IMG/VR virus record: IMGVR_UViG_3300047562_003246
Span: 1 to 64,000 of that record
Source: a virus
DNA: 64,000 nt
Strand: one strand, 5' to 3'
Part shown: piece by piece, positions 2,101-60,604 of the stretch
Layout: the number at the start of each line of letters is the position of its first letter
How positions within the stretch are numbered: position 1 is the first letter of the stretch
Made by a program: the position numbers and the translations under genes
Notes under the pieces: generated by a model
Seen by the model: the letters and a program-made list of their open reading frames with translations, nothing else
The model's database searches: none
Told to the model about the DNA's origin: nothing

Positions 2101-2132
2101 AGCGCAGGGTTTGTAGGATCCTGCGCTTTTTT
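2101..2132 (+). terminator. Intrinsic terminator containing the 14-bp repeat
   Basis: AGCGCAGG (2101-2108) pairs with CCTGCGCT (2120-2127), followed by T6. The 3' arm is part of a reverse-strand copy of the dispersed 14-bp repeat, so the repeat supplies half of the hairpin. Confidence 0.75.
2113..2126 (-). repeat. Dispersed 14-bp repeat, exact copy 1
   Basis: Exact reverse-strand GCGCAGGATCCTAC, intergenic, built into the terminator hairpin after the gene ending at 2084. Confidence 0.95.
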
Positions 2133-2164
2133 GTTTACATGTGTTTTCTCTAGAGGAATATTTC

Positions 2165-2410
2165 ATGACTGTAAAATTTCGCTTCAACGTCACTGGTGTC
2201 TGTGAGCAAGAAATTGAGTTAGTAAAAGATTGTCCGCTGACTGTTGAGCAAATTACTGCTGGCTTAAACGGCGATGGAGACACAGTCGTTACGACCGTAC
2301 AAGAGGGCGGCGACTTGGTGATGTATCAGCCCGATGGAAAAGAAGTGATACTCGGAAAAGTAATCGATAGTACTATGGACGCCGAATACACGGAGTTCGA
2401 ACTGCAATGA
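2165..2410 (+). CDS. Small unknown protein (81 aa)
   Basis: Begins MTVKFRFNVTGVCEQEIELV and is predicted to be largely beta strand and acidic. The ATG at 2165 has GAGGA eight bases upstream, better than the GTG at 2141. Its stop overlaps the next start as ATGA, so the two genes are translationally coupled. No family recognised. Confidence 0.65.
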   Translation: MTVKFRFNVTGVCEQEIELVKDCPLTVEQITAGLNGDGDTVVTTVQEGGDLVMYQPDGKEVILGKVIDSTMDAEYTEFELQ

Positions 2411-2652
2411 GCGCACGAAAGCAATTAGTGAAACAAGCCATTGAAACACTGACCAATTGTTGTCACAGCAATCAGTTAACAAGCAATGAAGTTCCAGAAG
2501 TAGAGTTGCTACTAGAAGAACTTGAAAGACTTCGAGATCAAGTAAGTCTTTTAGAGACCAAGAACTTTTTAAGAAAACCAGTCGTCAACGCAAAGACACT
2601 TAAGCCTGGTTTTTATGAACTAGGCGACGGCATTAAACTGGTGATCAAGTAA
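2407..2652 (+). CDS. Small unknown protein with coiled coil (81 aa)
   Basis: The first 50 residues are helical with leucine heptads (VELLLEELERLRDQVSLLE). A short beta-rich tail follows, ending DGIKLVIK. It overlaps its neighbours by four bases upstream and one base downstream, so it belongs to the 2165-3219 operon. Possibly a small structural or adaptor protein; function unknown. Confidence 0.65.
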   Translation: MSARKQLVKQAIETLTNCCHSNQLTSNEVPEVELLLEELERLRDQVSLLETKNFLRKPVVNAKTLKPGFYELGDGIKLVIK

Positions 2653-2978
2653 TGGCGAAGAAAGGTCAACTAACTACAAAGCAAATGGTTGCCGAGATAA
2701 GTCGTTATCTCGATACTTGTTCTAAAGAACAGTTAATTCGTTTTGTAGTTGACATGATGGAAAACACGGATGTAGAAAAAAGCATCAGGATCGTGTGTAA
2801 GATCATCATAGAGAATTCCGGTATTAAGCTAGCTGAGGTAGTCAAAAATGAAAAGCAAAAAACAAGCCGAGCAAAGAAAGCTGCACCTGCAAAACATCAG
2901 AAAGCACCTAACAAAAATGCAGGAATTAGCAAACGGGTACGAAAACCTGTATCGCATGGCGGAAAGAAGCGAAAATGA
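2652..2978 (+). CDS. Helical protein with highly basic C-terminal tail (108 aa)
   Basis: The first about 65 residues look like a compact helical domain (LTTKQMVAEISRYLD). The last about 40 are Lys/Arg/Ala/Pro rich (KQKTSRAKKAAPAKH), like nucleic-acid-binding tails. The basic tail is encoded by the same DNA as the first 43 codons of the next gene in another frame, a 131-bp overlap. DNA or RNA binding is inference from charge only. Confidence 0.6.
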   Translation: MAKKGQLTTKQMVAEISRYLDTCSKEQLIRFVVDMMENTDVEKSIRIVCKIIIENSGIKLAEVVKNEKQKTSRAKKAAPAKHQKAPNKNAGISKRVRKPVSHGGKKRK

Positions 2979-3219
2979 CTTGTTTGCTCCGCTACTGGAT
3001 ACAGCAGGGTCAATCGTCATAGACGGGTTATCTCGTAGCGGCACGTTACTTGAAGTTCTGACAGAGGGACTCAAAGCAGATTGTGATCATGCGTGGGAAG
3101 TCGTAGATGATTCTTATGATCATGAGTTCGGCACAGAAAATATTGTTTTTGAGCGTTGCATCCACTGCGACGAAGAGCGTGAGCATGAACCTCGTCAGTT
3201 TGACGATAACGTAATCTGA
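2848..3219 (+). CDS. Helical/zinc-finger-like protein (123 aa)
   Basis: The N-terminal about 45 residues are a basic amphipathic helix (HLQNIRKHLTKMQELANGY). Near the C-terminus CDHAWEV is followed by CIHCDEE, a C-x2-H...C-x2-C arrangement typical of a small zinc ribbon. ATG 2848 has a GAGG eight to nine bases upstream. A shorter product from ATG 2956 is possible. It overlaps the previous gene by 131 bp. Confidence 0.6.
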   Translation: MKSKKQAEQRKLHLQNIRKHLTKMQELANGYENLYRMAERSENDLFAPLLDTAGSIVIDGLSRSGTLLEVLTEGLKADCDHAWEVVDDSYDHEFGTENIVFERCIHCDEEREHEPRQFDDNVI

Positions 3220-3243
3220 TTAGTAACCCGCGAGCAAGTAATT

Positions 3244-3786
3244 ATGATCGAGTATAGATGTTATCATTGCAACCAAGTTTTCTATGAAGAAGACGGATCA
3301 GCTTCTGAACATTTTGGTTGCAGTATGGTACAGGAACCTATTTGTACTATTAACGCGAAAAGACTTCGAGAGCTAGAACAAGAAGTTGATAGTCTACGAC
3401 GACAAATTCAGGAAGAGAGTACGCCGCTTGAAAGAGAAATAGCGTCTTTGCGATCAGAGATAGCTACTAAAGAACGTCGAGCTGAAGAAGCGGGATATGC
3501 TCGTGGACTTGAGGATGCAAAAAAGTATCCAGAAACACTGGGACTAATACAGCTTGCTAAATCAAATGTGGCTATGCGAGTCATTGGTAATGACGGCAAG
3601 CTTCTTGGGTATACACGCGGAGGTGAACTACTCTTTGACAGGGATCAATTTAAAGATTGGCCCAGTTTCGTTCAAAGTGTAAGTGACGCTATTTTTGATC
3701 TTGTGCCTATCGATAAAGAATCCGAGCCAGCGAAAGAACTTATTGCTAAAGACAATAAGCGAATAGCAGAGTTAAATAAGAGTTAG
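3244..3786 (+). CDS. Zinc-binding/coiled-coil protein (180 aa)
   Basis: The N-terminus MIEYRCYHCNQVF with later HFGC and PIC resembles a C2HC-type knuckle. Residues about 38-85 form a strong coiled coil. A short beta region follows (GNDGKLLGYTRGGELLFD). Related N-terminal finger plus coiled-coil proteins are common in large phages but have no assigned role. Confidence 0.65.
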   Translation: MIEYRCYHCNQVFYEEDGSASEHFGCSMVQEPICTINAKRLRELEQEVDSLRRQIQEESTPLEREIASLRSEIATKERRAEEAGYARGLEDAKKYPETLGLIQLAKSNVAMRVIGNDGKLLGYTRGGELLFDRDQFKDWPSFVQSVSDAIFDLVPIDKESEPAKELIAKDNKRIAELNKS

Positions 3787-3821
3787 TTTTTGTTTCAGTC
3801 TCACACAGGATCAACAGTATT

Positions 3822-4103
3822 ATGTCTCAAAAAATAAAGAAAACACTAAGCATTAAAGAACACAGCGGATCAAAGTATCTACGAGAAATAATCACATCAG
3901 CAGATGGTCTGGTTGACGTTTACGCAGTTCTTGATGCATTCGAAGTGAAATGTCCTGGCAGTCAGCACGCCATTAAGAAACTTCTTTGCGCCGGTATTCG
4001 AGGCAAAGGCAGCGAGCTACAGGATCTTCGCGAAGCTAGAGATGCAATTGACAGAGCTATTGAGTTACGCGAGTTTAAGGAACAAAAAGTTCGTGACAAA
4101 TAG
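3822..4103 (+). CDS. Conserved small protein of unknown function (93 aa)
   Basis: The block DVYAVLDAFEVKCPG followed by AIKKLLCAGIRGKGS and LREARDAIDRAIEL resembles a small family seen in planctomycete and environmental phage genomes. The C-terminus is a charged helix. The start ATG follows GGATCAACAGTATT and lacks a strong Shine-Dalgarno. No function is known to me. Confidence 0.65.
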   Translation: MSQKIKKTLSIKEHSGSKYLREIITSADGLVDVYAVLDAFEVKCPGSQHAIKKLLCAGIRGKGSELQDLREARDAIDRAIELREFKEQKVRDK

Positions 4104-4347: not shown

Positions 4348-4395
4348 TGTTGTTTGCTGGGTAGCTACGCATATACCAATTTGGATACGTAAGTT

Positions 4396-8483: not shown

Positions 8484-8497
8484 GCGCAGGATCCTAC
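8484..8497 (+). repeat. Dispersed 14-bp repeat, exact copy 2
   Basis: Exact GCGCAGGATCCTAC, intergenic, immediately downstream of the zinc-ribbon gene. It is followed by about 245 bases with no intact gene. Confidence 0.95.
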
Positions 8498-11230: not shown

Positions 11231-11437
11231 ATGAAAGACAGCGAAATCAGAGCTAGGCTCATCGAGCAAGGCGTCAAGAACTTGAAGGAATTTGGTTACC
11301 CAAACTGTACTTCAAGCAATATCTTGACTGACGGTATTTACAAAGAGTTCTTTTTGTCGATGCTCAAGGACAACAAGGGACACAACTCGCAGATTGACAA
11401 AGTGATCGATCAGCTTATCGCTGATATCGAGAAATAG
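11231..11437 (+). CDS. Small helical unknown protein (68 aa)
   Basis: Begins MKDSEIRARLIEQGVKNLKEFGYP, resembling short phage proteins with an N-terminal helix plus FGYPxxxxxNI. The final base of its TAG stop is the first base of a dispersed repeat copy. Function unknown. Confidence 0.65.
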   Translation: MKDSEIRARLIEQGVKNLKEFGYPNCTSSNILTDGIYKEFFLSMLKDNKGHNSQIDKVIDQLIADIEK

Positions 11438-11450
11438 CGCAGGATCCTAC
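11437..11450 (+). repeat. Dispersed 14-bp repeat, exact copy 3
   Basis: Exact GCGCAGGATCCTAC, sharing one base with the stop codon of the preceding gene. Followed by GATCG, as in the variant at 25181. Confidence 0.95.
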
Positions 11451-14375: not shown

Positions 14376-17087
14376 ATGATGTCTATCGATTACCAATCTA
14401 TCGCACACCGTTTGTCGAAGCAAGCTGGTTCTCTGCTTAGAACCATTCTTGTTAGCGGACATAGTGGTTCAGGTAAGTCAACGCTAGCCGAGCGACTGGC
14501 GACTAGGCTACAGCAGCCGCTTGTTTCGCTTGATAAACACCCTGCTTGGCACGATCTGTTCCGTTCAGACCCAGAAAGCTTGCACCTTATCAAAGGAACT
14601 CCTGAGCGTAAAAACTTCTTAGCTATTCGAAAAATGATAGCTAATGACGCACTAAGTGGACTTAAAGAACCTACGATTGTTGAAGGCACTCAGTTAGTTG
14701 GTTTGCCTTTCAAAGACCTTGCTCGTTTTGCAAGGGTTTATGTTTCTACGCCTTTACGTCAGTTACTTGATCAAAGGATAGCTAGGGTTGAGGCAAAAGC
14801 TTTAGCAAAACAAAAACCATGGGACGAAAGTATCCGTCAGCGTCGTTACGACATGGGAAGACGTATATACAACGACAATTACAGGAGCATGCTTAAGTTC
14901 AAAAACATGCCCGGTACTTTACATTATCGTACTCGCGAAGACTCGCCGGAGGATGTTATTAACTTGCTGCAAAAACAAAGCAGTGAGTATGTGTTTAGTC
15001 GAGTAGATGACCCAGGTGATGGAACTAAGCAGGACTTACGCAAGCGGTTTGACGTTCATCTAGATAACAAGAACGTAGCGTACCTTGTTTATCGCCCAGA
15101 GTCATTCGAGAAAGACGGACCATTCTTATCCGGGCTGTACGTGTCACCAGAACATAGACGGCAAGGATTAGCTAAAAAACTTGTGACTATGCTTGAACGA
15201 GAGCATAAAGGCGAGACTATTAGGTTACTTGCTAATCCGTACAAAGACAAAAATCTGTCGACTCAGGATTTAGTTGCGATGTACAAACATCTTGGTTTTG
15301 ATTCAGACAACAAACGTCAGCCTGCTCGAATGAGTAAAAAAGCTGATGTTGATTTACTGACTGCATTAAAATCAAGAGGTATTGACCTTACTGACCCTGC
15401 GCAGGATCCTACAAAAAAAGGAATCTTTGGACAGCTCAGGCGATCGTTTGCTGAGCGATTCAAGCCTATCTCTAATCCGGCCAACATTTCGACAGTATTA
15501 CCAGAACTTGGAAAACCAGCGAGACATTTTATGAGCAATCCACGTTACAGCACTGACTTGGGCCTACATAACAAGCCGAGCTTGTTTACACAGTTTAAGC
15601 AAGCGAACGATCCGTTTGTTCTTGCCAACAGGAGAGAAATACTACCAACACTGGCAGGCCCCAGATACTCTTTTCCTGTAACTAACGATCCAGCTGAGCA
15701 AGAGTTTATGGGTATAGATACTAACCAACCCGTAGACCGCTATGACTATAGGCAATGGGGTAAAACTAACATACCTACAAGACCTGAGCCGTTTGATTCA
15801 TTTATTGACCCTCTAGGAACCGGCCTGCAACGATCTAAGCGAAATGGACGATATGTCGGTAGGCTCCACGATAATGCAAGATTGTTTTGGGAGAAAGATC
15901 TTAATGAGCTGGCAGCTAATATCAACAATTCTCCAGCATCTGTAAACAGCAATTTAGCCGGAATGCCTGTTTATTCTCCACTATCACCAGCTGACTTATC
16001 TCGTAACAATCAAGCAGCCCAACAAGAATTCGGTTCTGGAGTTAATTACCAGAATCAAACAGGAGTTGACAATTTTGATATTACTGACGCAGATGTGTGG
16101 GCTACCAAGCAGCGTCGTTTTTTCGATCCTGATAACCTATTACGTAGTAATCCTGCTCAAGAAGATCGAAATTATTTTTTTGGTCGCGCATTTTCCCAGG
16201 AAGATATAGACAAGGAAACAAGAAGTCGAATTGTTCACAGCATGCCTAGTGTGTATTCACCGCAAAGACCTACGCAAGCTGCTCCCAGTCGTTCCTTGAC
16301 AGAAAACACCCCAGCAACTACGACACCTGTTAGATCAACGACAACCGCAACCCGGCCAACTGTAACTCGATCGACTGCGTCAACGCAATCGTCATCGCCG
16401 CAAGTAAATACAACTACTACTTCTAGTTCTTTGCCGAAATTTACTCCACCATCCAGAACAAATACACCGGTATCGGCTTCAAGTTCACGTAATTTAGCTG
16501 GACCTGCTGTAGCTACAGCGAACTCAGTATCACCAAAAACAACCAGACAAAACGCCATTATTAATACCGTCAGAAATCCTACGACTTACAACGGCATCAG
16601 AGTTAATAATCAAGCCGCTGCGAGAAACAAATCACTCGGACAAACTGATCGGCAAGAACTAGCCAACGCCGGTTTTGGTGTAACTCCAGGCGGAGTAATT
16701 CAACGTACAAATACAAGACGTAGCGTCGGAGGTGGAACGTTCGGCGTAGGTGCAACACCATCACCAGGACAGTCTGGCGAACAAGCATTAAGAACAACAA
16801 CCGGCATACCAACAAGCTCTGTGATTAATCCGCAGAATGTTGTTGCTGGTCGGTCAAGATATGGTCTTGCCGCAGATGGTACATCAAGAATGCCAGCAGG
16901 TCGTCGTGGAATGATCATGGCTAGGACTGATATAAGCGACGAGCAAAAGCAAATGTATTTAAACAAACTAGACGCTTACGAGGCTAGCAAAGGTAGAAAC
17001 AGGTTTATACAAAAACAGTCAGCCGTAATAACACAATATACTTCTGATTTGCTGTATGCTTGGAAAAAGTTAATTGCGCGTAGATAA
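14376..17087 (+). CDS. P-loop kinase / GNAT acetyltransferase fusion with long disordered tail (903 aa)
   Basis: N-terminal LSKQAG tag, then GHSGSGKSTLAERLA (Walker A, about 28-42) with a kinase-like helical lid to about residue 195. Residues about 205-315 form a GNAT domain: FLSGLYVSPEHRRQGLAKKL (acetyl-CoA loop) and MYKHLGFD. Residues 320-800 are Asn/Pro/Thr/Ser-rich and probably disordered, ending in a short helix with QKQSAV. The domain mix resembles phage polyvalent proteins that are injected with DNA. It contains dispersed repeat copy 4 in frame (PAQDPT). Confidence 0.7.
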   Translation: MMSIDYQSIAHRLSKQAGSLLRTILVSGHSGSGKSTLAERLATRLQQPLVSLDKHPAWHDLFRSDPESLHLIKGTPERKNFLAIRKMIANDALSGLKEPTIVEGTQLVGLPFKDLARFARVYVSTPLRQLLDQRIARVEAKALAKQKPWDESIRQRRYDMGRRIYNDNYRSMLKFKNMPGTLHYRTREDSPEDVINLLQKQSSEYVFSRVDDPGDGTKQDLRKRFDVHLDNKNVAYLVYRPESFEKDGPFLSGLYVSPEHRRQGLAKKLVTMLEREHKGETIRLLANPYKDKNLSTQDLVAMYKHLGFDSDNKRQPARMSKKADVDLLTALKSRGIDLTDPAQDPTKKGIFGQLRRSFAERFKPISNPANISTVLPELGKPARHFMSNPRYSTDLGLHNKPSLFTQFKQANDPFVLANRREILPTLAGPRYSFPVTNDPAEQEFMGIDTNQPVDRYDYRQWGKTNIPTRPEPFDSFIDPLGTGLQRSKRNGRYVGRLHDNARLFWEKDLNELAANINNSPASVNSNLAGMPVYSPLSPADLSRNNQAAQQEFGSGVNYQNQTGVDNFDITDADVWATKQRRFFDPDNLLRSNPAQEDRNYFFGRAFSQEDIDKETRSRIVHSMPSVYSPQRPTQAAPSRSLTENTPATTTPVRSTTTATRPTVTRSTASTQSSSPQVNTTTTSSSLPKFTPPSRTNTPVSASSSRNLAGPAVATANSVSPKTTRQNAIINTVRNPTTYNGIRVNNQAAARNKSLGQTDRQELANAGFGVTPGGVIQRTNTRRSVGGGTFGVGATPSPGQSGEQALRTTTGIPTSSVINPQNVVAGRSRYGLAADGTSRMPAGRRGMIMARTDISDEQKQMYLNKLDAYEASKGRNRFIQKQSAVITQYTSDLLYAWKKLIARR
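15399..15412 (+). repeat. Dispersed 14-bp repeat, exact copy 4
   Basis: Inside the kinase/GNAT gene, read in frame as Ala-Gln-Asp-Pro-Thr, in the linker after the GNAT domain. Confidence 0.95.
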
Positions 17088-17101: not shown

Positions 17102-18109
17102 ATGTTTGATCATCGACGGTTTTCATTATGGCTGCAAAAACAAGCTATCGGCGCTAGATCTTTACGCGCCGCTAAAAGTTTGGCAAGACTTAATGAGAAC
17201 GTGTCGGGTAACACTGCAGCCGTTAAAGAGTTAGCCAGACGTATAGGCAAAGCTAAGTCAGACACTGGTTATCTTCGACAGATATCTCAAAGACGTTTAC
17301 CACATATTGACGCTATTTTGCCTGAAAGTGGAAAATCCACTTACCTGTCTACTCCATCAAGTACGGCTAGATCCCGATCTTTGACACTGAAATACAGGTA
17401 TCAACAGTACTTGGGTAGTTTAGCTAAAAGAAACCCAGGAATATTTTCGCAGCAAGATTGGGATAAATTCAATATAGAAGATAACTTGCCCAGGGTACAA
17501 ACCCCTGAATTTACACAAAGGATAGCTCGTTATGCAGATAGAAAAGAGAAGCGTATATGGGATCGAGTGAAACAGGATCCTGCGCTTATGGAACTTTATA
17601 GACGAAAAAAGTTAGTTGATACCGCTAAAAAAGACATGTACGTTGGGGCTTACGTAGATAGGTCAAGAAGTAATATCAAACCAGTAGATCTTCCTACTGG
17701 GGATAATATGAGATATAAGGGTTTGTTAGAGTTTCCAGCAACACCGCAAAATGAACCGATCTGGTATTCACCTCGACCTGACGTAGCTGAAGGATATAGT
17801 CGTGGCACAGGTGTTGTTGCTGCGACAGATGAAAACACATTGAGAAAATTTGGACCACTTGGCCCTGTAACATCGCATATTAGTACCGATAATAGACTTT
17901 TGCCCGTTAAAAAGACAGGATTTATGGCTAGATTTTTATCAAGGTTCAAAAAACCAAAACCAACTTCACCTGGATTTGAGCAGGTAGCTACTATGCCTCC
18001 GTTGCAACAATGGGCGGATAATCATACGTTCTTTGCAAAAATGCCAGATAATAAATTTAGACAAATGTCGGGTCGCGGTCTGCTTGGGAAAGAAGTAAGC
18101 GATGGTTAG
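17102..18109 (+). CDS. Virion-type protein with possible ART-like motif (335 aa)
   Basis: Its N-terminus contains LQKQAIGARSLRAAKS, matching the two upstream large proteins. The first 190 residues are basic and helical. Residues about 205-260 have KGLLEFPAT and IWYSPRPDVAEGYSRG, which resembles the Ser/Pro-containing strand of ADP-ribosyltransferase-like domains (..FSTSPEVAxxYA). No clear catalytic Glu can be placed, so the assignment is weak. Ends just before a strong terminator. Confidence 0.55.
   Translation: MFDHRRFSLWLQKQAIGARSLRAAKSLARLNENVSGNTAAVKELARRIGKAKSDTGYLRQISQRRLPHIDAILPESGKSTYLSTPSSTARSRSLTLKYRYQQYLGSLAKRNPGIFSQQDWDKFNIEDNLPRVQTPEFTQRIARYADRKEKRIWDRVKQDPALMELYRRKKLVDTAKKDMYVGAYVDRSRSNIKPVDLPTGDNMRYKGLLEFPATPQNEPIWYSPRPDVAEGYSRGTGVVAATDENTLRKFGPLGPVTSHISTDNRLLPVKKTGFMARFLSRFKKPKPTSPGFEQVATMPPLQQWADNHTFFAKMPDNKFRQMSGRGLLGKEVSDG
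17574..17585 (-). repeat. Partial copy of the dispersed repeat (12 bp)
   Basis: AGGATCCTGCGC, the reverse strand of the first 12 bases, inside the previous gene as Gln-Asp-Pro-Ala. The GT end is replaced by AC. Confidence 0.7.
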
Positions 18110-21796: not shown

Positions 21797-21810
21797 GTAG
21801 GATCCTGCGC
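21797..21810 (-). repeat. Dispersed 14-bp repeat, exact copy 5
   Basis: Reverse-strand copy filling the space between the terminator T tract and the Shine-Dalgarno (AAGAGGAG) of the next gene. Confidence 0.95.
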
Positions 21811-21824: not shown

Positions 21825-22121
21825 ATGTATAAGAACTTTTTAGTGACGGATATTGAGTGGGATACGGAAGCAGAGCCGCAGGAAGATTGCGGATTGCCTA
21901 GTCAAGTACTCGTCGTAAACATCCCACAGGAAGTTTGGTCAAATGAAGACGAGTTGGACAACCAACTGTCAGAACTAACTTCGGATTGTTTTGGGTTTTG
22001 TCATCGTGGTTTTGATTCTTGTGATTTCAATACATTGGAATTAAAACCAAACGGTACGTTGCACGACATGAAGTCATGTATAGCCATAGTTAATTTCACC
22101 ATATACGCCGGATTGTCATGA
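21825..22121 (+). CDS. Small acidic unknown protein (98 aa)
   Basis: Start backed by AGAGGAG. YKNFLVTDIEWDTEAEPQED and CGLPSQVLVVNIPQEV. Resembles short phage proteins of the style 'VTDIxWDTDGE...LP', often of unknown function. Coupled to the next gene by ATGA. Repeat copy 5 lies in its leader. Confidence 0.65.
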   Translation: MYKNFLVTDIEWDTEAEPQEDCGLPSQVLVVNIPQEVWSNEDELDNQLSELTSDCFGFCHRGFDSCDFNTLELKPNGTLHDMKSCIAIVNFTIYAGLS

Positions 22122-25180: not shown

Positions 25181-25192
25181 GTAGGATCCTAC
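25181..25192 (+). repeat. Palindromic variant of the dispersed repeat
   Basis: GTAGGATCCTAC, a perfect palindrome built from the 3' half of the repeat, followed by GATCG as in copy 3. Confidence 0.75.
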
Positions 25193-28084: not shown

Positions 28085-28098
28085 GCGCAGGATCCTAC
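28085..28098 (+). repeat. Dispersed 14-bp repeat, exact copy 6
   Basis: Intergenic, 15 bases after the previous stop and seven bases before an inverted repeat. Confidence 0.95.
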
Positions 28099-30909: not shown

Positions 30910-31665
30910 ATGAATCAACCTATCGAACCTACCGCAAAACAAACACTCAATGTTGAGCAAAAGCATTTTGAGCTATTTGAGCGATCTATTGCGAAAGTAA
31001 TTCAGGGAGCTGAGTCTTTCGACAAGTACGTCAGCTCGAAAAAAGGCGGCTCCAGCTTTCCAATGGGCGACGACGACGATGAAGAAGGCTACGAGCAAGG
31101 TTACGAAAGCTGGGAGGCAGTCAAGCAAGATGGGAACTTCAACAAGCTTGCGTTCTGCTTACATAACAGCATGCGATTGTTTATCGCGACCAGAGAACTT
31201 GTGCGGCAGGAAGGGTTAGCTGACTTTTCTATCAATCAGCCACAGGTACAAGAAGGGCCTCGCATGATGCCTATGCTTGTTGGGTCGATGCGAGTACCTG
31301 GACAACCTGCAGAAGGACCCGAGCAAGCCGCTGAGCAGTGTAACTGCCCGGTATGCGTAGTTAATCGCCATCGCGCAGCACAACACGGAATGACTCCGTT
31401 TGAAGCGATACCCGAAGCATCTGCGTTTATGGACGATAAAGACCAACCGCCTCAAGTGCACGCAGCTACAAATATGCTGTTTTCTACGGCGAGTTACGCT
31501 TTATCTTTGGTTTCGCAGGAACAACTCGACAAGATTTGGGGTAGGGTTAAAGAGCTGATTTTTGAGCATTCACAGTTGCAGCGAGCACAACTGGAGCCAG
31601 TCGAGCAAACTGCGCAGGATCCTACGCAGATAAAAGCTACGAAGATTTTCACAAAGCTTGCTTAA
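30910..31665 (+). CDS. Acidic multi-segment protein with Cys pair (251 aa)
   Basis: N-terminal helix; an acidic patch near residue 55 (MGDDDDEEGYEQGYESWE); a Pro/Met-rich linker; QCNCPVCVVNRHRA; and a helical end. Dispersed repeat copy 7 encodes AQDPT near the C-terminus. No family recognised. Confidence 0.6.
   Translation: MNQPIEPTAKQTLNVEQKHFELFERSIAKVIQGAESFDKYVSSKKGGSSFPMGDDDDEEGYEQGYESWEAVKQDGNFNKLAFCLHNSMRLFIATRELVRQEGLADFSINQPQVQEGPRMMPMLVGSMRVPGQPAEGPEQAAEQCNCPVCVVNRHRAAQHGMTPFEAIPEASAFMDDKDQPPQVHAATNMLFSTASYALSLVSQEQLDKIWGRVKELIFEHSQLQRAQLEPVEQTAQDPTQIKATKIFTKLA
31612..31625 (+). repeat. Dispersed 14-bp repeat, exact copy 7
   Basis: In frame as Ala-Gln-Asp-Pro-Thr, about 13 codons before the stop of the host gene. 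Confidence 0.95.
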
Positions 31666-38784: not shown

Positions 38785-39162
38785 ATGGGTTTCACGACAT
38801 GTAACGGTTATTCTCGCAGAGACTTAATCATACACTTGATGTCTGATAGTCCGCAGGATAAGTACATCGCTATCAACAAGTACACAAGTGGTAACGACTT
38901 ATGGGTCGTCATGCAAAGGCGTGATGCGCAGGATCCTACAAACGCCGATAGATACATCAGGCTGTATAGATTACAGCGAACTAAGGATGGCTGGGGCTAC
39001 AGCGACTATGCAGAAGCAGATTGTCCTTACGTATTTAGCTGTCCGTTGATTTTTCTGGACATTACTTTTCACCAAAACACCGATTGGCGAAAAGGGGTAA
39101 GAGAGTATTGGAAAGCCCGTAAGGAAGCGATGACTACTCGTAGAAAAAGTTCGCCTAGTTGA
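38785..39162 (+). CDS. Conserved phage-type protein (125 aa)
   Basis: AAGGAGAACATT precedes ATG. MGFTTCNGYSRRDLIIHLM, then LWVVMQRRD and CPLIFLDITFHQ. The MG[FW]T...LWxVxQ layout resembles a small phage family of unknown role (DUF6927-like, tentative). Carries repeat copy 8 in frame (AQDPT) in a loop, which suggests the insertion is tolerated. Confidence 0.6.
   Translation: MGFTTCNGYSRRDLIIHLMSDSPQDKYIAINKYTSGNDLWVVMQRRDAQDPTNADRYIRLYRLQRTKDGWGYSDYAEADCPYVFSCPLIFLDITFHQNTDWRKGVREYWKARKEAMTTRRKSSPS
38926..38939 (+). repeat. Dispersed 14-bp repeat, exact copy 8
   Basis: In frame as Ala-Gln-Asp-Pro-Thr within the 38785 gene. Confidence 0.95.
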
Positions 39163-40044: not shown

Positions 40045-40500
40045 ATGTCGGCAGTATTTTTGTTAGCGTTCCCTGAGCAGGATAACGTCGGAGTCTTCTC
40101 CGATGCGTTTCCTGTCTCTGCGCCGCCTCCTGTGTTATTGGCTGCTGCGCTGAATATTCTGCGAGATAGGCTTGTACTGAGTTTCAGCGAAGTAGTTACA
40201 GGAAACACAGTTCCAGTGCTGACATTCTCAGGCGGCGCAGTTACGGCGACATTTGCAAACATTGTCGGAGATACGGTCAGGTTTACCTTAAGTCGCACGA
40301 TTGCCGAAAACGAAACAGGTAGTTTGACGCTCAGCGCAGGATCCTACACTTCGGCTTCTTCAGGGGAGACTAACTCGGCAGCTGCGCTTAGCATCGCAGT
40401 ACCTACGGCGAGAATGAATGCAGACAGGGGTCTGGTGAATTCTCTGTTTCGTAGCCGCATTGTTGAGAGTATTACGGGCGATATTGTAGAGCTAAACTGA
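40045..40500 (+). CDS. Ig-like/SwmB-type repeat protein (151 aa)
   Basis: LVLSFSEVVTGNTVPVLTF and TVRFTLSRTIAENETGSLTL resemble one bacterial Ig-like repeat of the type found many times in the 53286 adhesin. A helical C-terminus follows (RGLVNSLFRSRIVESIT). Repeat copy 9 encodes SAGSY here. Confidence 0.6.
   Translation: MSAVFLLAFPEQDNVGVFSDAFPVSAPPPVLLAAALNILRDRLVLSFSEVVTGNTVPVLTFSGGAVTATFANIVGDTVRFTLSRTIAENETGSLTLSAGSYTSASSGETNSAAALSIAVPTARMNADRGLVNSLFRSRIVESITGDIVELN
40334..40347 (+). repeat. Dispersed 14-bp repeat, exact copy 9
   Basis: In the 40045 gene, but in a different frame from other coding copies (Ser-Ala-Gly-Ser-Tyr). Confidence 0.95.
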
Positions 40501-52064: not shown

Positions 52065-53261
52065 ATGGAACAAGGATTCACATCACTGTCTGCGGGTATC
52101 GCCGAAATCGATCAGGCGGTTACCGATAAAACAACAGCCGATTTGGTGACAAATACAGGTCTCGGTGCTGTTCTGCGTAGGATCCTGCGCACGGTTTACG
52201 AGATAAATCCCGATGTTTCTGGTACCTGTCAGAACTGTTTTTTCTACGGGCAAGGAGCACCTGCTGCTGAGTTAGGCAAAGAAGATGACTGGTATTTGCA
52301 GATCGACACCGGAGACATATGGGCGCATTCCGGTGCAAGTGCACAAAATACGCCTGCTCCCATACCAGTTGATATTGAAGTCATTACCGAAGAAGACTTG
52401 GAAAACTTTTTTGGTAGCTGGGCGAAAACTGGTATCACGCTTAAGGGTCCAACGGGTCCAACTGGATTAACCGGACCCGCAGGAACCAACGGTACTAACG
52501 GAGCTTCAGTCGATGTTCGTATGTCTGGAACAGAACTACAAACAAAATTGACTAATCAGCTGGATACAAGTTACGTAACTAGATTTGATTTTGCAGATAT
52601 TACGCCAGTTGTAACGGTTAGCCCTGATTTAGATCTAAATTACCGTTTAGCTGGCGATGCTCCAGAAGAAGCTGCAACGATATTTGATCTAGCGTCCTTG
52701 ACGCCAAGAATGCGTGTCGATTCTAACAAGCTCCAGTGGAAGCTCACAGTTCAGCCTGACACCGATTATGTAGACGTTCTAAATCTCAATACGATTACGC
52801 CAGTATTTCGTATTGTCAATCGTGATGTGCAGTACAAATATGCTAGCCAAGCCGACAGTAGCTACACGTCTATCGGGGAATTAGATAGCGCTTCACAGTT
52901 AGACGGTGATATTATCCCGGTCAGCGTTGCGCTCAGTAATATTACTCCGGACACAACCCCTGAACAAGTAACAGCAGCAGACCAGCTCGGTGCGATCATA
53001 AAAGGCATCGATAATGCACTGACGCAGGCCCCTTTAAAAATGCGGGCTGTGCAAGTTGACGCGGCTATGGTTACCGCTAGATCGGTGAATTTTTCTGTCG
53101 AGCTTCGTGACCCGGCGAATGCTGTGGTAGTATTAGATGGATCCTTCCGACCAGCTGGACAGGTCTCAGTCAACGCTAACGGCGTAATGACTTGGGCAGC
53201 TGGAGGTGCCTTTGCCAGTGCTATAACTAGCTCAAGCTATGTAATACTGTTCTCTAACTGA
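52065..53261 (+). CDS. Collagen-like tail fibre/accessory protein (398 aa)
   Basis: N-terminal helix; CQNCFFYGQGAPAAELGKED; a short collagen-like Gly-x-y run near residue 127 (GPTGPTGLTGPAGTNG). Beta repeats follow (DFADITPVVTVSPDLDLNY and related units). Fibre protein by composition. Carries reverse-strand repeat copy 10. Confidence 0.7.
   Translation: MEQGFTSLSAGIAEIDQAVTDKTTADLVTNTGLGAVLRRILRTVYEINPDVSGTCQNCFFYGQGAPAAELGKEDDWYLQIDTGDIWAHSGASAQNTPAPIPVDIEVITEEDLENFFGSWAKTGITLKGPTGPTGLTGPAGTNGTNGASVDVRMSGTELQTKLTNQLDTSYVTRFDFADITPVVTVSPDLDLNYRLAGDAPEEAATIFDLASLTPRMRVDSNKLQWKLTVQPDTDYVDVLNLNTITPVFRIVNRDVQYKYASQADSSYTSIGELDSASQLDGDIIPVSVALSNITPDTTPEQVTAADQLGAIIKGIDNALTQAPLKMRAVQVDAAMVTARSVNFSVELRDPANAVVVLDGSFRPAGQVSVNANGVMTWAAGGAFASAITSSSYVILFSN
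52177..52190 (-). repeat. Dispersed 14-bp repeat, exact copy 10
   Basis: Reverse strand within the 52065 gene, read as Arg-Arg-Ile-Leu-Arg, avoiding the frame that would give TAG. Confidence 0.95.
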
Positions 53262-53285
53262 GAACTCTATTACACAGGCTTGCAA

Positions 53286-56200
53286 ATGCGTCCAGAACAG
53301 AAGCTTCATTTAGCCCAAGAAACGCCAAATTTAAATCAAAGACTATCTCGTTTAGGTGCTCAGTATTCAGGCACCTGCGTGATCTTTGATTCGACATTCG
53401 GACAGGAATTGGACTTATCGCTATCTTTTGTCGGCGAAGATCCGAATTATCTGTGGGTTAGGGCGGTTTTTAGCAAACCACCAGCAAACTTATCGACAGC
53501 GTCTTTTACAATCACTGGACCGATTACAGCACATAGTCTGTCGGGACAAGATCGCAGTTTTGTATTTGTGCTGCAAAAAACAGGGTTTGGACAAGCTTCG
53601 ATCAGCATTGCTACCAATACCGTTGCTGACGAAGCTGGTGAGTTTTTCCCTGCAACTGGACCTATCATCAGGGATATTAACGCAAGGCCGATACCTGTCA
53701 TCACCGGGCCAACTCAGGTATCTGTAGGCACAACCCAGTTGACGATCACCTTCAATGAAGATGTTACTGGTTTATCGATTGCAGACTTTGTTGTCACTGG
53801 AGGCTCGGTTAATTCGCTAGTAGGTTCCGGAGATAGTTACACGTTTAATTTGGAAGTCGCAAGTATCCAGACCGAAGTACAAGTCGTGTTGCCAGCCGGT
53901 GTGTGTCAAGCGGCTAACCTCAGTACGAATGTTGATTCCAATATTTATGCGCCCGTTACCAGTAAAGGGCCGCTAACGGCAACTGTTAAACCGACTAAAG
54001 CTATTTTCTCGACTTTCTTAACTACGTTTTTAATTGAGTGGAACGCGGACGTAGATGATTCGTTTTCGCAGCAAGATCTGAGTGTTAATACAGGAACTAT
54101 CACAGGATTTACAAAAATCACTCCAAGTAAATTCCTAGTCAATGTCACAGTGACAGAAGACACAACAGTGACTCTGACAGTTGTAGCCGAGACTGTTACT
54201 TTGCTTGGATACGATCCAAACCTCGCAGCCTCTGGTTCTTGTCAAGTATCTACGACTGCCCTTACTTTTACGTTAGTGCCTCCGACTGGTTGGCTTAATG
54301 GAGAAGCAGTTATCGAAGTCATAGCCAACGGACCTCACTCTGGTTTATTAGCAAGTGATTTTGTGGTGCAAAACGGTGTCGTACTTGACTGGTCTCCTGT
54401 TGGTAATGGAGGCAGCCTCACGGTGGCACCGACAAGCTACGGTCGAGAAGTTGTGCTTGCTGTCAGTATACCTGCAGGTGTAGCAGTTAATCCGGCAGGT
54501 TTAGAGAATAACGCTGCTGGTCCTGTTCAAGTTTTTCATGATTCGCTGCCTCCAGCAATTACGTTTGTAAGTTTCACTAGGATAGGCGACGAATATGAAT
54601 TTGCATTTCGTACCAGCGAGATTGTTGTCAGGGTATTAGATTACTCACATCCAGAGTCCAGTAGCACTGTATTTACAGGCGAAGGACTTAACTGGGTTGT
54701 CCGAGTAAATCCTATTGCCGATAAGGGTAATTTGCAGATTAACTTTCCTGCAGGATTGTTTGCAGACAAAGCTTATAACGTCTCAGCTGCTGTCAGCTCC
54801 CCGGTTTATCCGTTTGACACAGTTGGTCCGGTAGGTGACTGGCAACTTGTAGCCGATGGTCACGCAATTACTCGGGTAACAAATAAGAAAAATCGAGCGT
54901 TCATACTCACGTTCGATTCGCAACTATCTGCAGAGCTAACAATAGACAAACTAACAACAAGTACTGGACTGGTTGTTTCTGGGTTAGAAGTGATACAACC
55001 GAGAAGAGTTTATCGCGTATCGACCGTCAATTCTGGTTTAACTGGTATTGCACAGTTATCTCTACCCGTTGGGTCTGTTCGCGATATGTTTGACAACATT
55101 AATACGACTGCAAGTACGGTTAATTGGGATTTCGATTTTGTAAAGCCTGTTGTCAGTGATTGGTCGGCTACGGTAGACGAACGCAACGTATTGTTTGTTA
55201 TTGAATTTAACGAAAATGTTTCTCGAAATGTCGGTAACTTTCAGGTACTAACACAAAACCTGACAGTACTGGATGTGACTTTTAGTTCTAGGATTATTAC
55301 CGTCAGTACTACGGTCAATAGTTCAACACCATCTAACAATCTGCAGGTAGGAATTGCCCTGCCTCAAAATTTTGTACTAGACATAGCAGACAACGGTAAC
55401 GATCAGACGATTTACTTTACAACGATTGTCGATACTGCTGGACCTACTGTAACAATTACCAGTCCACAGCATCCACAAACAAGTTCGCAGTTAGTTACGT
55501 TCGGTATCGAATCTAGTGATCCACTATCTAGTGACTTAGTTCGTAGTCAGCTGCAGTTGGTCAACGCTACGCTAGATCCGTTAAGCGATCTTGATACAAG
55601 TTTTGTCATCAATACGCCCGGTAGAGTTTATACCGCAACAGTAAGAGCTGTTCAGGACGGCGAAGTCAGATTAACAGTACCCGCTAATATTCTTTTGGAC
55701 CTAGACGGGAATCCAAACTCGCAAGGAAGTTTGACGGTTCTTGTAGGTAGCAGGTTTAATCTTACACTAGCATTTTCTGCAGGATCAAAACCAGATACTA
55801 GGGTTCTTACAGTTAGCTCTTCGATTGCGATTGATCAAAGTTCGTTGACAGTCAGCGACATCAATCCATCTGAAGGTGCTCTAAGTGTAGAGGCAGGTGA
55901 TTCGTTTAATAGATTTGTTATTCAGCTCAACCCAGCACTGACAACAGCAAGAGCTACGATACCGTCAGGGGAAGTTTTATCAACAACGGGTCGAGTTAAT
56001 AATCAGGCGACTCAGCAGACTAGCTACGCTGCGATGCTTGCTTCAGCGATTATGACTTCGACGACTCAGCAAGTTAGACGCAACGTAGATATTCCAGTTG
56101 ATATCACTTGGAACATTAGAGTTCAGCGGTTTACCGTTGCTGATCTAAAGATCGGTATTAGAAACGTAGACTTGCAGATAATTACTGGCACAGGCTTTGT

Positions 56201-59200
56201 AGGGAATATCGTAGGACTCACTACTATCGAGCCTGGGTACAAGTTTAGAGCTATTTGCAGAGTCTCCGAGTTTCCAAGTAATCTTCAAGAAAGATTACAC
56301 ATATGGCATGATGCGACTGTCAACGGTACAGCCGACATGGCGAATCGTCGTGTCACAGATCAAGCTTTTATTTCCCTTCCATTTGTTGATCCGCTTGTCA
56401 GTACGTTCTCTTCTCCAGACTCACCGTCGACGACAAAAAGATTGATTACTTTTGTTGTGACTTTCAATAGTGATTTGGCTCAGAACTTAACGCAGCAAGA
56501 TTTTACAATCATCAATGGTGCCATAGGAGCTGCGTATCCAGGTAGTTCTTTTACTGTTTCGCCAAACGGTAGGCAGTACACTTTGGTTGTTTACGCTTTA
56601 GCTGTAGATGACGTGACGGTTATTCTCGCTAACGACGTAGCTCAAGGTGCTCAAGGTCAATTCGTTCAAGGCGGCGAACTTACCGTTGTCTGGTTAGGAC
56701 TAGAAAACTTCTTCATCGAGTGGGTTACGGCTGCGGGAGAATACAGAGATTCTTTTGACTTTCATTTAGTCGTCGAAGAAGGTATTGACCTTGATTATGA
56801 TCAAGTCACTGTAGATAGTTTGGTCTTCAATTCTAATTTGATGAAGATCACTAAACTGCCAGGACAAAACGCTGCCTTTACTGCTATCAGAATACCGAGC
56901 TTGACAGTTGCAGTTTTTGAAGCACCAGCCGGTGTTTATGAATCGGCAGATGGTAGACGTAATAACAAAGCTACTGGCGTCAGGTCGTTACTTGCGTTTC
57001 TTGGCGGCTTAACTATTACTACCGAGACTTCGTTTGTTGTTTACGATAGAGACCTTGTTTTTACTATCACCTCGAATACAAAGATCAACGGCACGATTGA
57101 TCCTAACGATTTGGAGTTTGGTCTTCGTGACAGTCTTTACAATCCTGTTCCAGGATTTAACCAAGACGGTGAGCTTGTAGAGTTTGTTGAAGTTGTTCCA
57201 GGTTACAGATGGACAGGTAGATATCGATTAGACGGACAAATAACTACCACGGCGTACCCGTTCTATATTTGGTATACCAATAATGGCAACGACACTGTTA
57301 ACTACTTCAATCAACCGATACCATCTGGTGCAAGAGCCCGTTTACAAGTTCTAGGAGTATTCGCTGCTGAAATTTGGAATTCAACTCCAGCGGCTTGGTA
57401 CCCGTATCCAGCTATCTTGACGTTCGATATCAGGTTTAATCAGGATTTAGCTGTAGAGCTGACAACTGCTGATTTTGATATCGTCAACGGTAATGTTCAC
57501 ACTAGTTCGCCGTCAAACGGATTTGTAACTGTTACTTCGAAGCGACATTACAAAGTTTATGTTCGACCGATTACTACTGGTAACGTAACAGTAAGCATTG
57601 CAGCGGGCGAAGTAGCTAGCGTCACTGGCGCAAGAAATACAGCAGCTGAAGCTACTGCTTCTTGGACATGGTATTTCCAGTTAACAGGTCAAATTACTCC
57701 GACAGCTAAAGCTGACCAGTTCATGGTAACGTTGAATGTACCGGAGGGCACAATATTACCTGACGCGATGGCTCAGCAAAATGCGTTATCAACAAACAGC
57801 TGGGTCGCGGAGAAGATCTATGTACCCAATACGTTCCAGTGGATTCTAAGGGTACATCCAGCAACAGGTCCCACGTTCAACACATCTGAACCTAGACAGA
57901 TTCAGATTTCGATTAATCGCAATGTTTTCGTGACTGACAATGGTTCTCGTAATGAGCCATATGTTTTTCCTGCGTACAGTTTTACGGTAGTTCCAAACAT
58001 TAATTTGACTGTTGAAACAGACCCACTTAGTACAGGCGAAAACTTTGTTGTAAGAGTTAAGTCAAATACTTACTTTGTTTTTGATCCTGATAGTAATCCG
58101 TCACAAAATATACTGGGCCTTGGCATTATTTGTTATTGCGGGTTTGTTGATGTGTCGGGATTTGATCCTGCTAACTACCTCGCGAGCATCCCTGGATTAA
58201 CGCTTTCCGGCGACAGAGGATATCTGCAATCGACCGAGGTTGACGAGAACTACGAATACACTTGGGCTTTTCAGTTGACAGCAATTAGCCCGCCTAAGCG
58301 AATTCAATATTCTAATCTGATTACTTATGGACATCGTGATCAAGTTAACGTACAGGTTCAAGTCGGCTTTGACGACAATAATCAACCGATTTATCGATTC
58401 AGTCAGGAAGCTTACTTGGCGATTGTTAATAGCGTTATCGGTGATTTTGGTGCACGTCCACTCACTGGCGGCTTATTGCTATCAAACGGTGCTATTTATT
58501 TGGTGCAAGGAGACAAGCTCCATAAGCCTGTCGTACTTGATATTACAAAGCATCTTGTCGAGTTTGATTGGCTTGGTGATGTTTACGCTACATTTAGGCA
58601 CGCATTTCACAACACGTTATTAAATGTGTTTCCTAGATATAAAACTAGATCGATTATTGTTCGTGTTCGTGTACGAGAAATGCCAGCGGGCACAGCTCAA
58701 GTTATTACAGTTGATTGGGGCGACGGTGAAATAGAAAACATCACAGCTTCGCAGGCTGTCAATACTGGAGTTACTGTTCCGAATGAACTTGAGTTTTGGC
58801 TCAGTCACGTTTATCCAGACGCTTCGCTCTATACAGCAAGCATCGAAGCTGTATCCAGCTACACGACGATTACAACATTATGCGAGGCAAGAGTACGAGC
58901 TAACGGCACGTTAACGCGAGTCAGACCCACAGAGATATCGCTTAATCAAATCGTTGCAATCCGAGAAAACCCAAATCGAGACAAACTTAAAGGTCTGGAA
59001 GAAGTCTGTGTTAGTCAAAACTTGACAGGCATGTTGTCGGTCGTAAGCACAGCCGAAGACAAAGTCGTGAAAAGTTTGAAGGCATACACAGGTTATTTAA
59101 AACTACCTGAAGATTATGGGATTTTCAATTTCGATACTAATCCCAATAATCCTTTTCAAGAACGTCTTACCGTGGGCGGTGTGACTTTTGCACCAGTTGA

Positions 59201-60008
59201 GTATCTAGATATCGCTACTACTCATAAGTTGCACGAAGCTTTAGGGTTATCTACTGCATCTTTAGGAGCAAATACAGACGGTGATCGTATTGTTAATTTG
59301 CACGACAGTAAATTCTTCAGTAATACGGATTCAGGTCACATAGGGACATTTAGATATACGACAAACACCCCTTCAGGTTCGCCGTTGTCGCACAGAAATG
59401 TACGATTTCAAAAAGCTGATTTGATCGAATTAAACGGACCTGTTTATTGGCGTATCGAGTTGCAGATACCGCCGCCCGCAGGTACAACACACTGGTTAAA
59501 GTCTGCTAAAGAAATCATAATTCAAAATTCGCCTAGCTTTATTCTCGACGAGCTATCGTTCGATCCTAGGTCTATAGGTACAAGGATTTACAGAATTACT
59601 AACACGCAAAACGTGTCTCTTCGTATCGATTGGCGCAAAAATTTAGCTCAAGCAAATACTTTGTTTTTCCCGAACGCTAACTGGCCTTCCAATACAGAAC
59701 TGGGCGTCCGACTAGTCCATATCATTAATCATCAGATGTCTTATCAAGAAGAACTAGCGTTTTTCACTAGGCTAGAGGGGATGTTGAACACACTAGTTAA
59801 CACATCCGGAGCTTATTCTCGTAGTGCAGGTTTTATACTCCCAGCGGCAACGATTTGCGAGATTTACCTGAAACGAGTTGGTGGGATTAACCCGCAAACT
59901 CCGGACGATATAATGCACAACAACGCGATTTTGCAGTCTATTACGAATATTGCTATATATTCGCAGCAAGCAAACGCACCGAATGTTTTCAGAATTACTA
60001 GAGAGTAA
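53286..60008 (+). CDS. Giant bacterial-Ig-like/PKD adhesin (2240 aa)
   Basis: At least eight Ig-like repeats carry the F-N-D-(5-8)-DF.V-nG pattern, for example ITFNEDVTGLSIADFVVTGG, FVIEFNENVSRN, FVVTFNSDLAQNLTQQDF and FDIRFNQDLAVELTTADF. Near residue 1805-1850 is a PKD-like module (VDWGDGEIENITA). The last about 400 residues form a separate globular end. ATG 53286 (TTG 53280 possible). Its length suggests a long tail or surface-binding fibre, or a tail-tip protein. Confidence 0.75.
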   Translation: MRPEQKLHLAQETPNLNQRLSRLGAQYSGTCVIFDSTFGQELDLSLSFVGEDPNYLWVRAVFSKPPANLSTASFTITGPITAHSLSGQDRSFVFVLQKTGFGQASISIATNTVADEAGEFFPATGPIIRDINARPIPVITGPTQVSVGTTQLTITFNEDVTGLSIADFVVTGGSVNSLVGSGDSYTFNLEVASIQTEVQVVLPAGVCQAANLSTNVDSNIYAPVTSKGPLTATVKPTKAIFSTFLTTFLIEWNADVDDSFSQQDLSVNTGTITGFTKITPSKFLVNVTVTEDTTVTLTVVAETVTLLGYDPNLAASGSCQVSTTALTFTLVPPTGWLNGEAVIEVIANGPHSGLLASDFVVQNGVVLDWSPVGNGGSLTVAPTSYGREVVLAVSIPAGVAVNPAGLENNAAGPVQVFHDSLPPAITFVSFTRIGDEYEFAFRTSEIVVRVLDYSHPESSSTVFTGEGLNWVVRVNPIADKGNLQINFPAGLFADKAYNVSAAVSSPVYPFDTVGPVGDWQLVADGHAITRVTNKKNRAFILTFDSQLSAELTIDKLTTSTGLVVSGLEVIQPRRVYRVSTVNSGLTGIAQLSLPVGSVRDMFDNINTTASTVNWDFDFVKPVVSDWSATVDERNVLFVIEFNENVSRNVGNFQVLTQNLTVLDVTFSSRIITVSTTVNSSTPSNNLQVGIALPQNFVLDIADNGNDQTIYFTTIVDTAGPTVTITSPQHPQTSSQLVTFGIESSDPLSSDLVRSQLQLVNATLDPLSDLDTSFVINTPGRVYTATVRAVQDGEVRLTVPANILLDLDGNPNSQGSLTVLVGSRFNLTLAFSAGSKPDTRVLTVSSSIAIDQSSLTVSDINPSEGALSVEAGDSFNRFVIQLNPALTTARATIPSGEVLSTTGRVNNQATQQTSYAAMLASAIMTSTTQQVRRNVDIPVDITWNIRVQRFTVADLKIGIRNVDLQIITGTGFVGNIVGLTTIEPGYKFRAICRVSEFPSNLQERLHIWHDATVNGTADMANRRVTDQAFISLPFVDPLVSTFSSPDSPSTTKRLITFVVTFNSDLAQNLTQQDFTIINGAIGAAYPGSSFTVSPNGRQYTLVVYALAVDDVTVILANDVAQGAQGQFVQGGELTVVWLGLENFFIEWVTAAGEYRDSFDFHLVVEEGIDLDYDQVTVDSLVFNSNLMKITKLPGQNAAFTAIRIPSLTVAVFEAPAGVYESADGRRNNKATGVRSLLAFLGGLTITTETSFVVYDRDLVFTITSNTKINGTIDPNDLEFGLRDSLYNPVPGFNQDGELVEFVEVVPGYRWTGRYRLDGQITTTAYPFYIWYTNNGNDTVNYFNQPIPSGARARLQVLGVFAAEIWNSTPAAWYPYPAILTFDIRFNQDLAVELTTADFDIVNGNVHTSSPSNGFVTVTSKRHYKVYVRPITTGNVTVSIAAGEVASVTGARNTAAEATASWTWYFQLTGQITPTAKADQFMVTLNVPEGTILPDAMAQQNALSTNSWVAEKIYVPNTFQWILRVHPATGPTFNTSEPRQIQISINRNVFVTDNGSRNEPYVFPAYSFTVVPNINLTVETDPLSTGENFVVRVKSNTYFVFDPDSNPSQNILGLGIICYCGFVDVSGFDPANYLASIPGLTLSGDRGYLQSTEVDENYEYTWAFQLTAISPPKRIQYSNLITYGHRDQVNVQVQVGFDDNNQPIYRFSQEAYLAIVNSVIGDFGARPLTGGLLLSNGAIYLVQGDKLHKPVVLDITKHLVEFDWLGDVYATFRHAFHNTLLNVFPRYKTRSIIVRVRVREMPAGTAQVITVDWGDGEIENITASQAVNTGVTVPNELEFWLSHVYPDASLYTASIEAVSSYTTITTLCEARVRANGTLTRVRPTEISLNQIVAIRENPNRDKLKGLEEVCVSQNLTGMLSVVSTAEDKVVKSLKAYTGYLKLPEDYGIFNFDTNPNNPFQERLTVGGVTFAPVEYLDIATTHKLHEALGLSTASLGANTDGDRIVNLHDSKFFSNTDSGHIGTFRYTTNTPSGSPLSHRNVRFQKADLIELNGPVYWRIELQIPPPAGTTHWLKSAKEIIIQNSPSFILDELSFDPRSIGTRIYRITNTQNVSLRIDWRKNLAQANTLFFPNANWPSNTELGVRLVHIINHQMSYQEELAFFTRLEGMLNTLVNTSGAYSRSAGFILPAATICEIYLKRVGGINPQTPDDIMHNNAILQSITNIAIYSQQANAPNVFRITRE

Positions 60009-60010
60009 CA

Positions 60011-60604
60011 ATGAGCGAACTAGATAAAACGATTGGAACACTTGACGGTTTGAACAGTATTTTGCTTGGTCAAATCGAGAACGGACAGCTGCCCAAGTTT
60101 GCGCAGGATCCTACAACTGCCGGTGCCTACGGTGAACCGATACCGGCGGAAATGGTTCAGCAAGGTGCAACGCAAATGGCACCAGAACCTGGAGCAGCAA
60201 GCGGTATGCCGCCAGAGCAACAAGATCCAATGATGCAGATTGCCGACATGGTCGCTCAGATCGGCCAGCTACTAGAGCAAGGCATGATGCAGATTCTCGA
60301 AGTCTTGACTCGTATGGACGAAACCAATCAGCGGGTCGAGAAACAGTTAGTGCTGATGTCCGGCGCAACACTAGGACAGCAAGCCACGATGGCGGCAAAT
60401 CCGATTGTTCCTCCACCGCCACAAGCAGCAGGACCTGGACCAGCTCAGCCGCAAAAGATGGCAAGCGATGAGATCGAACTTCCTGCTGCACAGCGAGACG
60501 GGCAAATGGCCAAACTCGACAGCGTTGACAGTCTGGGAGAGACGCTTAGAAAAACAAGTAATGTTTTCGAAGCGATCCGAGCGATCAGGGCAAGTGGTGA
60601 GTAA
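60011..60604 (+). CDS. Gln/Met/Pro-rich virion-type protein (197 aa)
   Basis: Gln/Pro-rich segments flank a helix DMVAQIGQLLEQGMMQIL. Near the C-terminus are LPAAQRDGQMAKLDSVDSL and a helix. Repeat copy 11 encodes AQDPT at residues about 31-35. Starts two bases after the adhesin. First gene of the operon leading to RNA polymerase. Confidence 0.6.
   Translation: MSELDKTIGTLDGLNSILLGQIENGQLPKFAQDPTTAGAYGEPIPAEMVQQGATQMAPEPGAASGMPPEQQDPMMQIADMVAQIGQLLEQGMMQILEVLTRMDETNQRVEKQLVLMSGATLGQQATMAANPIVPPPPQAAGPGPAQPQKMASDEIELPAAQRDGQMAKLDSVDSLGETLRKTSNVFEAIRAIRASGE
60101..60114 (+). repeat. Dispersed 14-bp repeat, exact copy 11
   Basis: In frame as Ala-Gln-Asp-Pro-Thr within the 60011 gene. Confidence 0.95.

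Follow-up and report, generated by a model that had tools for sequence, protein, structure and literature searches.

A dispersed 14-bp word in a large phage genome as a putative recognition site of a Noc/ParB-like, genome-organising phage protein

The phage and its dispersed 14-mer

The stretch of DNA analyzed here (the window) covers positions 1-64000 of the 185,237-bp virus record IMGVR_UViG_3300047562_003246 and contains 11 exact copies of the 14-mer GCGCAGGATCCTAC, the subject of this study. The phage encodes a multisubunit RNA polymerase (RNAP) that is split between 61025-62950 of the window and 170093-174508 of the record, beta being fused to part of beta' and the remaining beta' lying elsewhere, as in Arash-like phages. 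Its other genes include those for a gpA-type terminase, a Rad50-like protein, DnaB, primase, PolI and a D12 adenine methyltransferase; terminal repeats were not found in the record. No relatives were found by nucleotide similarity or with the phage's own RNAP beta as a lone query, and relatives were collected with an RNAP beta alignment that included Salmonella phage Arash and Vibrio phage D181. The nearest isolates are Salmonella phage Arash and the Vibrio phages D69, D148 and D181, with about 28% identity in the polymerase, and the nearest contig (G001) is 38% identical in RNAP.

The 11 copies had been noticed in a sequence-only reading of the window. All were recovered at the same positions and on the same strands, and none appeared in 100 dinucleotide-shuffled versions of the window sequence. 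When the count was extended to the whole record, 30 exact copies were found (20 on the plus and 10 on the minus strand), while the reversed pattern, used as a control, had no match in the record. The word is sharply delimited. Besides the exact copies, the record holds 2 sites with one mismatch and 9 with two, and 5 of these 9 are exact copies read on the reverse strand. Fourteen fixed bases are followed by a purine in 29 of the 30 copies, and no larger flank is common to them. The core, previously described as palindromic, is so in an imperfect form, GCAGGATCCTAC, centred on AGGATCCT; the 14-mer itself is not palindromic, and the perfect palindrome GTAGGATCCTAC occurs at two sites of the record only, 25181 and 127274 (the latter being TTTTGTAGGATCCTACAAAA). 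Within the window, GGATCC was observed 20 times against 6.0 expected.

The methyltransferase gene, of the D12 class (Dam-like), lies at 179880-180899 of the record (L014:15880-16899), with a motif copy near the gene end. The motif is centred on GATC, yet this tetramer occurs 943 times, and methylation alone therefore does not explain the 14-mer. GAGCTC is nearly absent from the whole record (1 site against about 24 expected), as are AGGCCT and CACGAG; this scarcity suggests avoidance of host restriction sites.

Placement of the copies and selection on the DNA

The copies are spaced more evenly than random, with a mean distance of 6.2 kb and a coefficient of variation of 0.487, compared with 0.952 for random placement (P ~5e-5); the largest gap is 11.9 kb (P = 7.5e-4). 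Intergenic or gene-boundary positions are enriched, as they hold 10 of the 30 copies while 7.7% of the sequence is non-coding (P = 5e-5). About 20 copies sit within genes. In three cases (125226, 145800 and 181555) the TAG stop codon of a gene is provided by a copy on the minus strand.

That the copies fall in different frames had been noted before, which is true but understates a preference: 12 of the 16 in-gene plus copies in plus-strand genes are read as GCG CAG GAT CCT ACN, encoding AQDPT. The phage has 12 predicted AQDPT peptides, all of them written by the motif with identical codons and none with other codons, which excludes selection at the peptide level; a protein motif was rejected, as one codon set is used in all 12 cases (expected frequency about 0.016 each). 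As these codons are identical and the 14-mer persists on either strand and in more than one frame, the earlier claim that selection acts on DNA, not on the peptide, is supported.

Strand usage differs between the two classes of site, in-gene copies being 17 plus and 3 minus and boundary copies 3 plus and 7 minus (Fisher P = 0.005). On account of this difference, the bias toward one strand seems to be a side effect of what coding sequence tolerates. Of the 203 genes of the record, 199 are on the plus strand, and boundary copies run with transcription in 3 cases and against it in 7. Both strands carry copies, in contrast to polarity signals of the Chi or KOPS type, which were among the parallels drawn from the sequence.

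It had also been suggested that the word is a mini mobile element, inserted, on the count for the record, at 30 places. Its all-or-none conservation (30 exact copies against 2 with one mismatch) and its sharp edges would suit such an element. The copies, however, use three frames and stop codons, share no larger flank and are evenly spaced. Furthermore, at the copy in the RNAP gene (173299) the relatives align gap-free, EEPVRRLLGL against EEPLRRILQL in the window phage. Because of this gap-free alignment, the RNAP copy is read as having arisen by substitution, not insertion; the comparison concerns the one gene in which it could be made, the others being too diverged. We therefore regard insertion of a mobile element as very improbable.

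The sites of the window are listed in Table 1. The gene at 14376-17087 encodes a 903-aa protein that has AAA/P-loop character at its N-terminus and also contains a GNAT acetyltransferase domain, and a very large gene (53280-60008, 2242 aa) lies amid structural-looking genes.

Table 1. Copies and variants of the 14-mer in the window (window coordinates).
Feature	Position	Strand	Context
14-mer copy	2113..2126	-	intergenic, inside terminator-like inverted repeat (GCGCAGG...CCCTGCGC)
14-mer copy	8484..8497	+	intergenic, stop codon 5 bp before
14-mer copy	11437..11450	+	first G finishes stop codon of gene 11231-11437
14-mer copy	15399..15412	+	inside gene 14376-17087, frame 0 (AQDPT)
near-copy, two mismatches, not exact	17572..17585	-	plus strand reads ACAGGATCCTGCGC
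14-mer copy	21797..21810	-	intergenic, start of gene 21825-22121 14 bp on
symmetric variant GTAGGATCCTAC, perfect palindrome	25181..25192	.	
14-mer copy	28085..28098	+	intergenic
14-mer copy	31612..31625	+	inside gene 30910-31665, frame 0 (AQDPT)
14-mer copy	38926..38939	+	inside gene 38785-39162, frame 0 (AQDPT)
14-mer copy	40334..40347	+	inside gene 40045-40500, frame 1 (AGSY)
14-mer copy	52177..52190	-	inside plus-strand gene 52065-53261, frame 1 of gene (RILR)
14-mer copy	60101..60114	+	inside gene 60011-60604, frame 0 (AQDPT)

Other words in related phages

The 14-mer is not kept in relatives: apart from chance near-matches it was absent from 44 of them, and among viral contigs it was found in 48, as a single copy each, at chance level. 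In favor of a word of host origin acquired by the phage (HIP1-like, an uptake sequence or a host nucleoid site), the enrichment at boundaries together with a preferred reading frame resembles the distribution of uptake sequences. However, in 84,980 species genomes no contig held the 16-base form more than once (29 single hits, no genome enriched; the phage's own host was not identified), and the relatives use unrelated words, so that a host origin has very little probability.

Instead of the 14-mer, several relatives carry words of their own. G002 contains TTTTGACTCCGGAGTCAAAA in 31 dispersed copies, a 20-bp perfect palindrome that, in the loci inspected (L152-L158), mostly fills short intergenic gaps, some of them barely longer than the word itself. 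In G001, CTATTGGCGCCAATAG occurs 5 times in 85 kb; G006 has 14 copies of CTTTACNNNGTAAAG, and G016 has 24 of TATTTCNNNGAAATA, which resembles the Noc consensus TATTTCCCGGGAAATA (PMC7383237). Further cases came from the relatives collected with PolI. L388/G066, a relative of G002, has 33 exact copies of TTGATTCCGGAATCAA (38 with variants), one base per half-site apart from the G002 word; L364/G059 has AATATCCGGATATT 16 times, and G048, G050 and G063 have 14-20 AAAATCYRGATTTT-like sites, compared with 1-3 control hits. A comparably strong dispersed palindrome was not found in 15 other genomes; as near-exact palindromes were sought, other relatives may have words that escaped detection by being degenerate or asymmetric.

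Arash and D181 were considered as motif-bearers and rejected, neither having a comparable palindrome. The Arash sequence TGGTATAAGTAA looks like a promoter, and in the same phage (L064-L067) GGTATAAGTA is dispersed in 16 copies and is probably a late promoter. The repeat AACACCGGTTGATAT of L099 was likewise rejected as a dispersed word, as it belongs to a protein-repeat gene: at L099:20825-24900 a gene with repeats of about 147 bp containing ACACCGGTTGAT forms a protein-repeat array.

A candidate binding protein

Because the shapes of the palindromes suggested ParB-family sites, ParB and related domains were searched in the relatives. ParB or DUF1016 helix-turn-helix (HTH) matches were found in all four motif-bearing RNAP relatives and in 4 of the 13 in which no motif was detected (Fisher P = 0.03), an association that is not independent across relatives, since motif and protein family alike follow the phylogeny. 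The matches were ParB-type in G006 and G016, and DUF1016_N with HTH_ParB in G001 and G002, where the PolI cluster is followed closely downstream by the DUF1016_N gene. Among the PolI loci, 71 of 79 had a DUF1016_N/ParB-HTH-like gene about 5 kb downstream of PolI, most of the other loci being cut short, and PF17761 (DUF1016_N) was matched by 10 of 13 sampled family members. An AlphaFold model of the G001 protein was of low confidence as a whole, with a mean predicted local distance difference test score (pLDDT) of 50, but residues 100-170 were at 62-82. Its best PDB matches were the DNA-binding domains of Noc and ParB (7ng0, 6s6h, 6sdk and 6y93; Foldseek probability 0.99-1.00, E 0.03-0.2), several of these structures being complexed with Noc sites (NBS) or parS.

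The sites also stand close to this gene. The Shine-Dalgarno sequence and ATG of the DUF1016 gene are directly preceded by the palindrome in L324-327 and L377, where it separates them from the gene before, and in L388, L364, G002 and the window phage (145800) a site is found directly upstream of the operon partner that precedes the DUF1016 gene or its counterpart.

The syntenic and much diverged counterpart in the window phage is 146874-148151 (425 aa; record coordinates, outside the window). Its protein aligned collinearly with positions 31-317 of the family profile, which has 343, at 12.8 bits, a score reached by none of 500 block shuffles. It has a basic, Lys/Ala/Thr-rich N-tail (27 K/R against 6 D/E in 90 residues), a predicted coiled coil and an acidic C-tail, and its model contains a helical middle domain with pLDDT 60-81 over residues ~147-229. 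Membership in a DNA-binding family is thus indicated in the relatives by PF17762/PF17761 matches and by the Noc/ParB likeness of the G001 model, and in the window phage only by synteny and the weak collinear profile match. We regard the 146874-148151 protein as the likely binder of the 14-mer. Another open reading frame, 92717-93628, matched the G001 protein (phmmer E 0.066) but was rejected, being without a DUF1016 domain and of other architecture. Strict ParA/ParB partition was also rejected, as the ParB CTPase domain PF02195 is missing in the window phage.

The neighborhood of the candidate gene, which adjoins replication genes (PolI, primase, DnaB), and the extension of the copies over the entire record would also fit a DNA-processing signal, be it a start of replication or recombination, a packaging signal or a site of programmed nicking as in T5. 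Nicks are strand-restricted and recombination signals polar, unlike the 14-mer, which is found on both strands (20/10). In addition, no nicking enzyme was identified and the palindromes of the relatives are symmetric. We consider DNA processing clearly unlikely, although less so than a mobile element or a host word.

Proposed function and alternatives

Among the roles offered by the sequence-only reading, that of a site bound by a phage DNA-binding protein fits the comparative evidence best. We consider it fairly probable that the 14-mer is recognised by a sequence-specific, genome-organising DNA-binding protein of Noc/ParB-like character that the phage itself encodes. The protein would act in the manner of Noc/NBS, SlmA/SBS or MatP/matS on bacterial chromosomes, loading on sites placed about every 6 kb along the genome, and, once bound, might organise, condense, tether, mark or separate the replicated phage genome. 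The same protein would probably also regulate its own operon, a possibility raised by the motif copy that precedes its operon partner.

The main rival is regulation of the stoperator kind, in which the copies would be genome-wide transcription-control sites and a many-site phage repressor would block initiation or elongation, as with stoperators or KorB operators. Stoperators are asymmetric repeats of about 13 bp with more than 20 copies in a phage genome (PMC9283540), the G002 copies are nearly all intergenic, palindromes stand at operon starts, and the ParB-type protein KorB combines partition with repression (PMC11790492). However, about two thirds of the copies in the window phage lie inside genes while stoperators are intergenic, 7 of the 10 boundary copies oppose transcription while stoperators follow its direction, and operators would not be expected to lie at even distances. 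Transcription control is therefore an unlikely explanation, though the least unlikely of the rivals. Because of the even spacing and the indifference to gene boundaries, we favor a genome-scale role over local transcription control; that the sites serve genome organisation rather than transcription regulation, or maybe both, is the least certain part of what we infer.

Several observations weigh against a Noc/ParB-like organising protein. The homology of the 146874-148151 protein is weak (E ~0.1-0.6 in the searched set) with high composition bias, the protein has no Pfam match, and its model is of low confidence, a PDB fold search with it being uninformative (long-helix matches only). The profile score of another open reading frame, 126021-127274, was slightly higher, yet over 40 residues only, and was judged to be chance. 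PF02195 was found neither in the window phage (G000) nor in G001 and G002. Moreover, the site of the window phage is asymmetric whereas those of the relatives are symmetric palindromes, and several ParB-bearing relatives have no detectable dispersed palindrome. Finally, the closest relative is 38% identical in RNAP, and the motif link across phages is therefore an analogy of arrangement.

More broadly, and more tentatively than for the single phage, we suggest that a clade of large tailed phages with multisubunit RNA polymerases might have its own chromosome-organising system, in which a DUF1016_N/Noc-like protein, with its gene next to that of the DNA polymerase, acts with 15-40 dispersed sites. 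The sequence of the sites would be re-invented in each lineage, and the system would lack the ParB cytidine triphosphate (CTP) clamp and would fold, mark or separate genomes, the site of the window phage being an asymmetric version. Dispersed palindromes with chromosome-organising proteins are already known in bacteria, and dispersed repressor sites in phages; for a system of a phage clade that combines a DUF1016_N/Noc-like protein with words particular to each lineage, no precedent was found in the literature searched. Little is known about the way in which large phages arrange their genomes and keep them apart during replication, and a phage counterpart of Noc/NBS or matS, if true, would make this question testable. 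The site and protein pairs that differ between lineages would then be a ready set for studying how DNA-binding specificity evolves, and the DUF1016_N domain would gain a concrete function, sequence-specific DNA binding.

Comparison with known systems

The stoperators of mycobacteriophage L5 are similar in being asymmetric 13-bp sites in more than 20 copies (PMC9283540), compared with 14 bp and 30 copies here, but they are intergenic and oriented with transcription, whereas the 14-mer lies mostly in genes and in both orientations. The KorB operators of plasmid RK2 share a ParB-family protein, dispersed palindromic sites and a mobile genome (PMC11790492); they differ in CTP clamping, and in site shape they are akin only to G006 and G016. 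The DUF1016_N family (PF17761) offers no matching known function, and the protein of the window phage falls below its model.

Among bacterial chromosomes, SlmA sites (SBS) occur in 24-52 copies and matS in 23 copies (PMC4726725, PMC3116907). SlmA/SBS and MatP/matS of E. coli resemble the phage sites in having palindromes of 12-13 bp, 23 to about 50 copies and a genome-organising role (PMC3116907, PMC4726725). The proteins are unrelated (SlmA is TetR-type; MatP), and SBS and matS are confined to parts of a 4.6-Mb chromosome in contrast to the even spread over 185 kb here.

Bacillus subtilis has about 70 Noc sites of 14-16 bp (PMC4726725). The phage system differs in belonging to a phage genome, in that each phage has its own word, that of the window phage being asymmetric, in that no ParB_N CTPase domain was detected in its DUF1016_N-type protein, and in having no known link to cell division. 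It resembles Noc/NBS in the dozens of short palindromic sites over one genome (many such sites were found genome-wide, imperfectly palindromic in the window phage), in the NBS-like word of G016, TATTTCNNNGAAATA, and in the protein of the relatives, whose predicted structure, as modelled for G001, matches the Noc/ParB DNA-binding fold.

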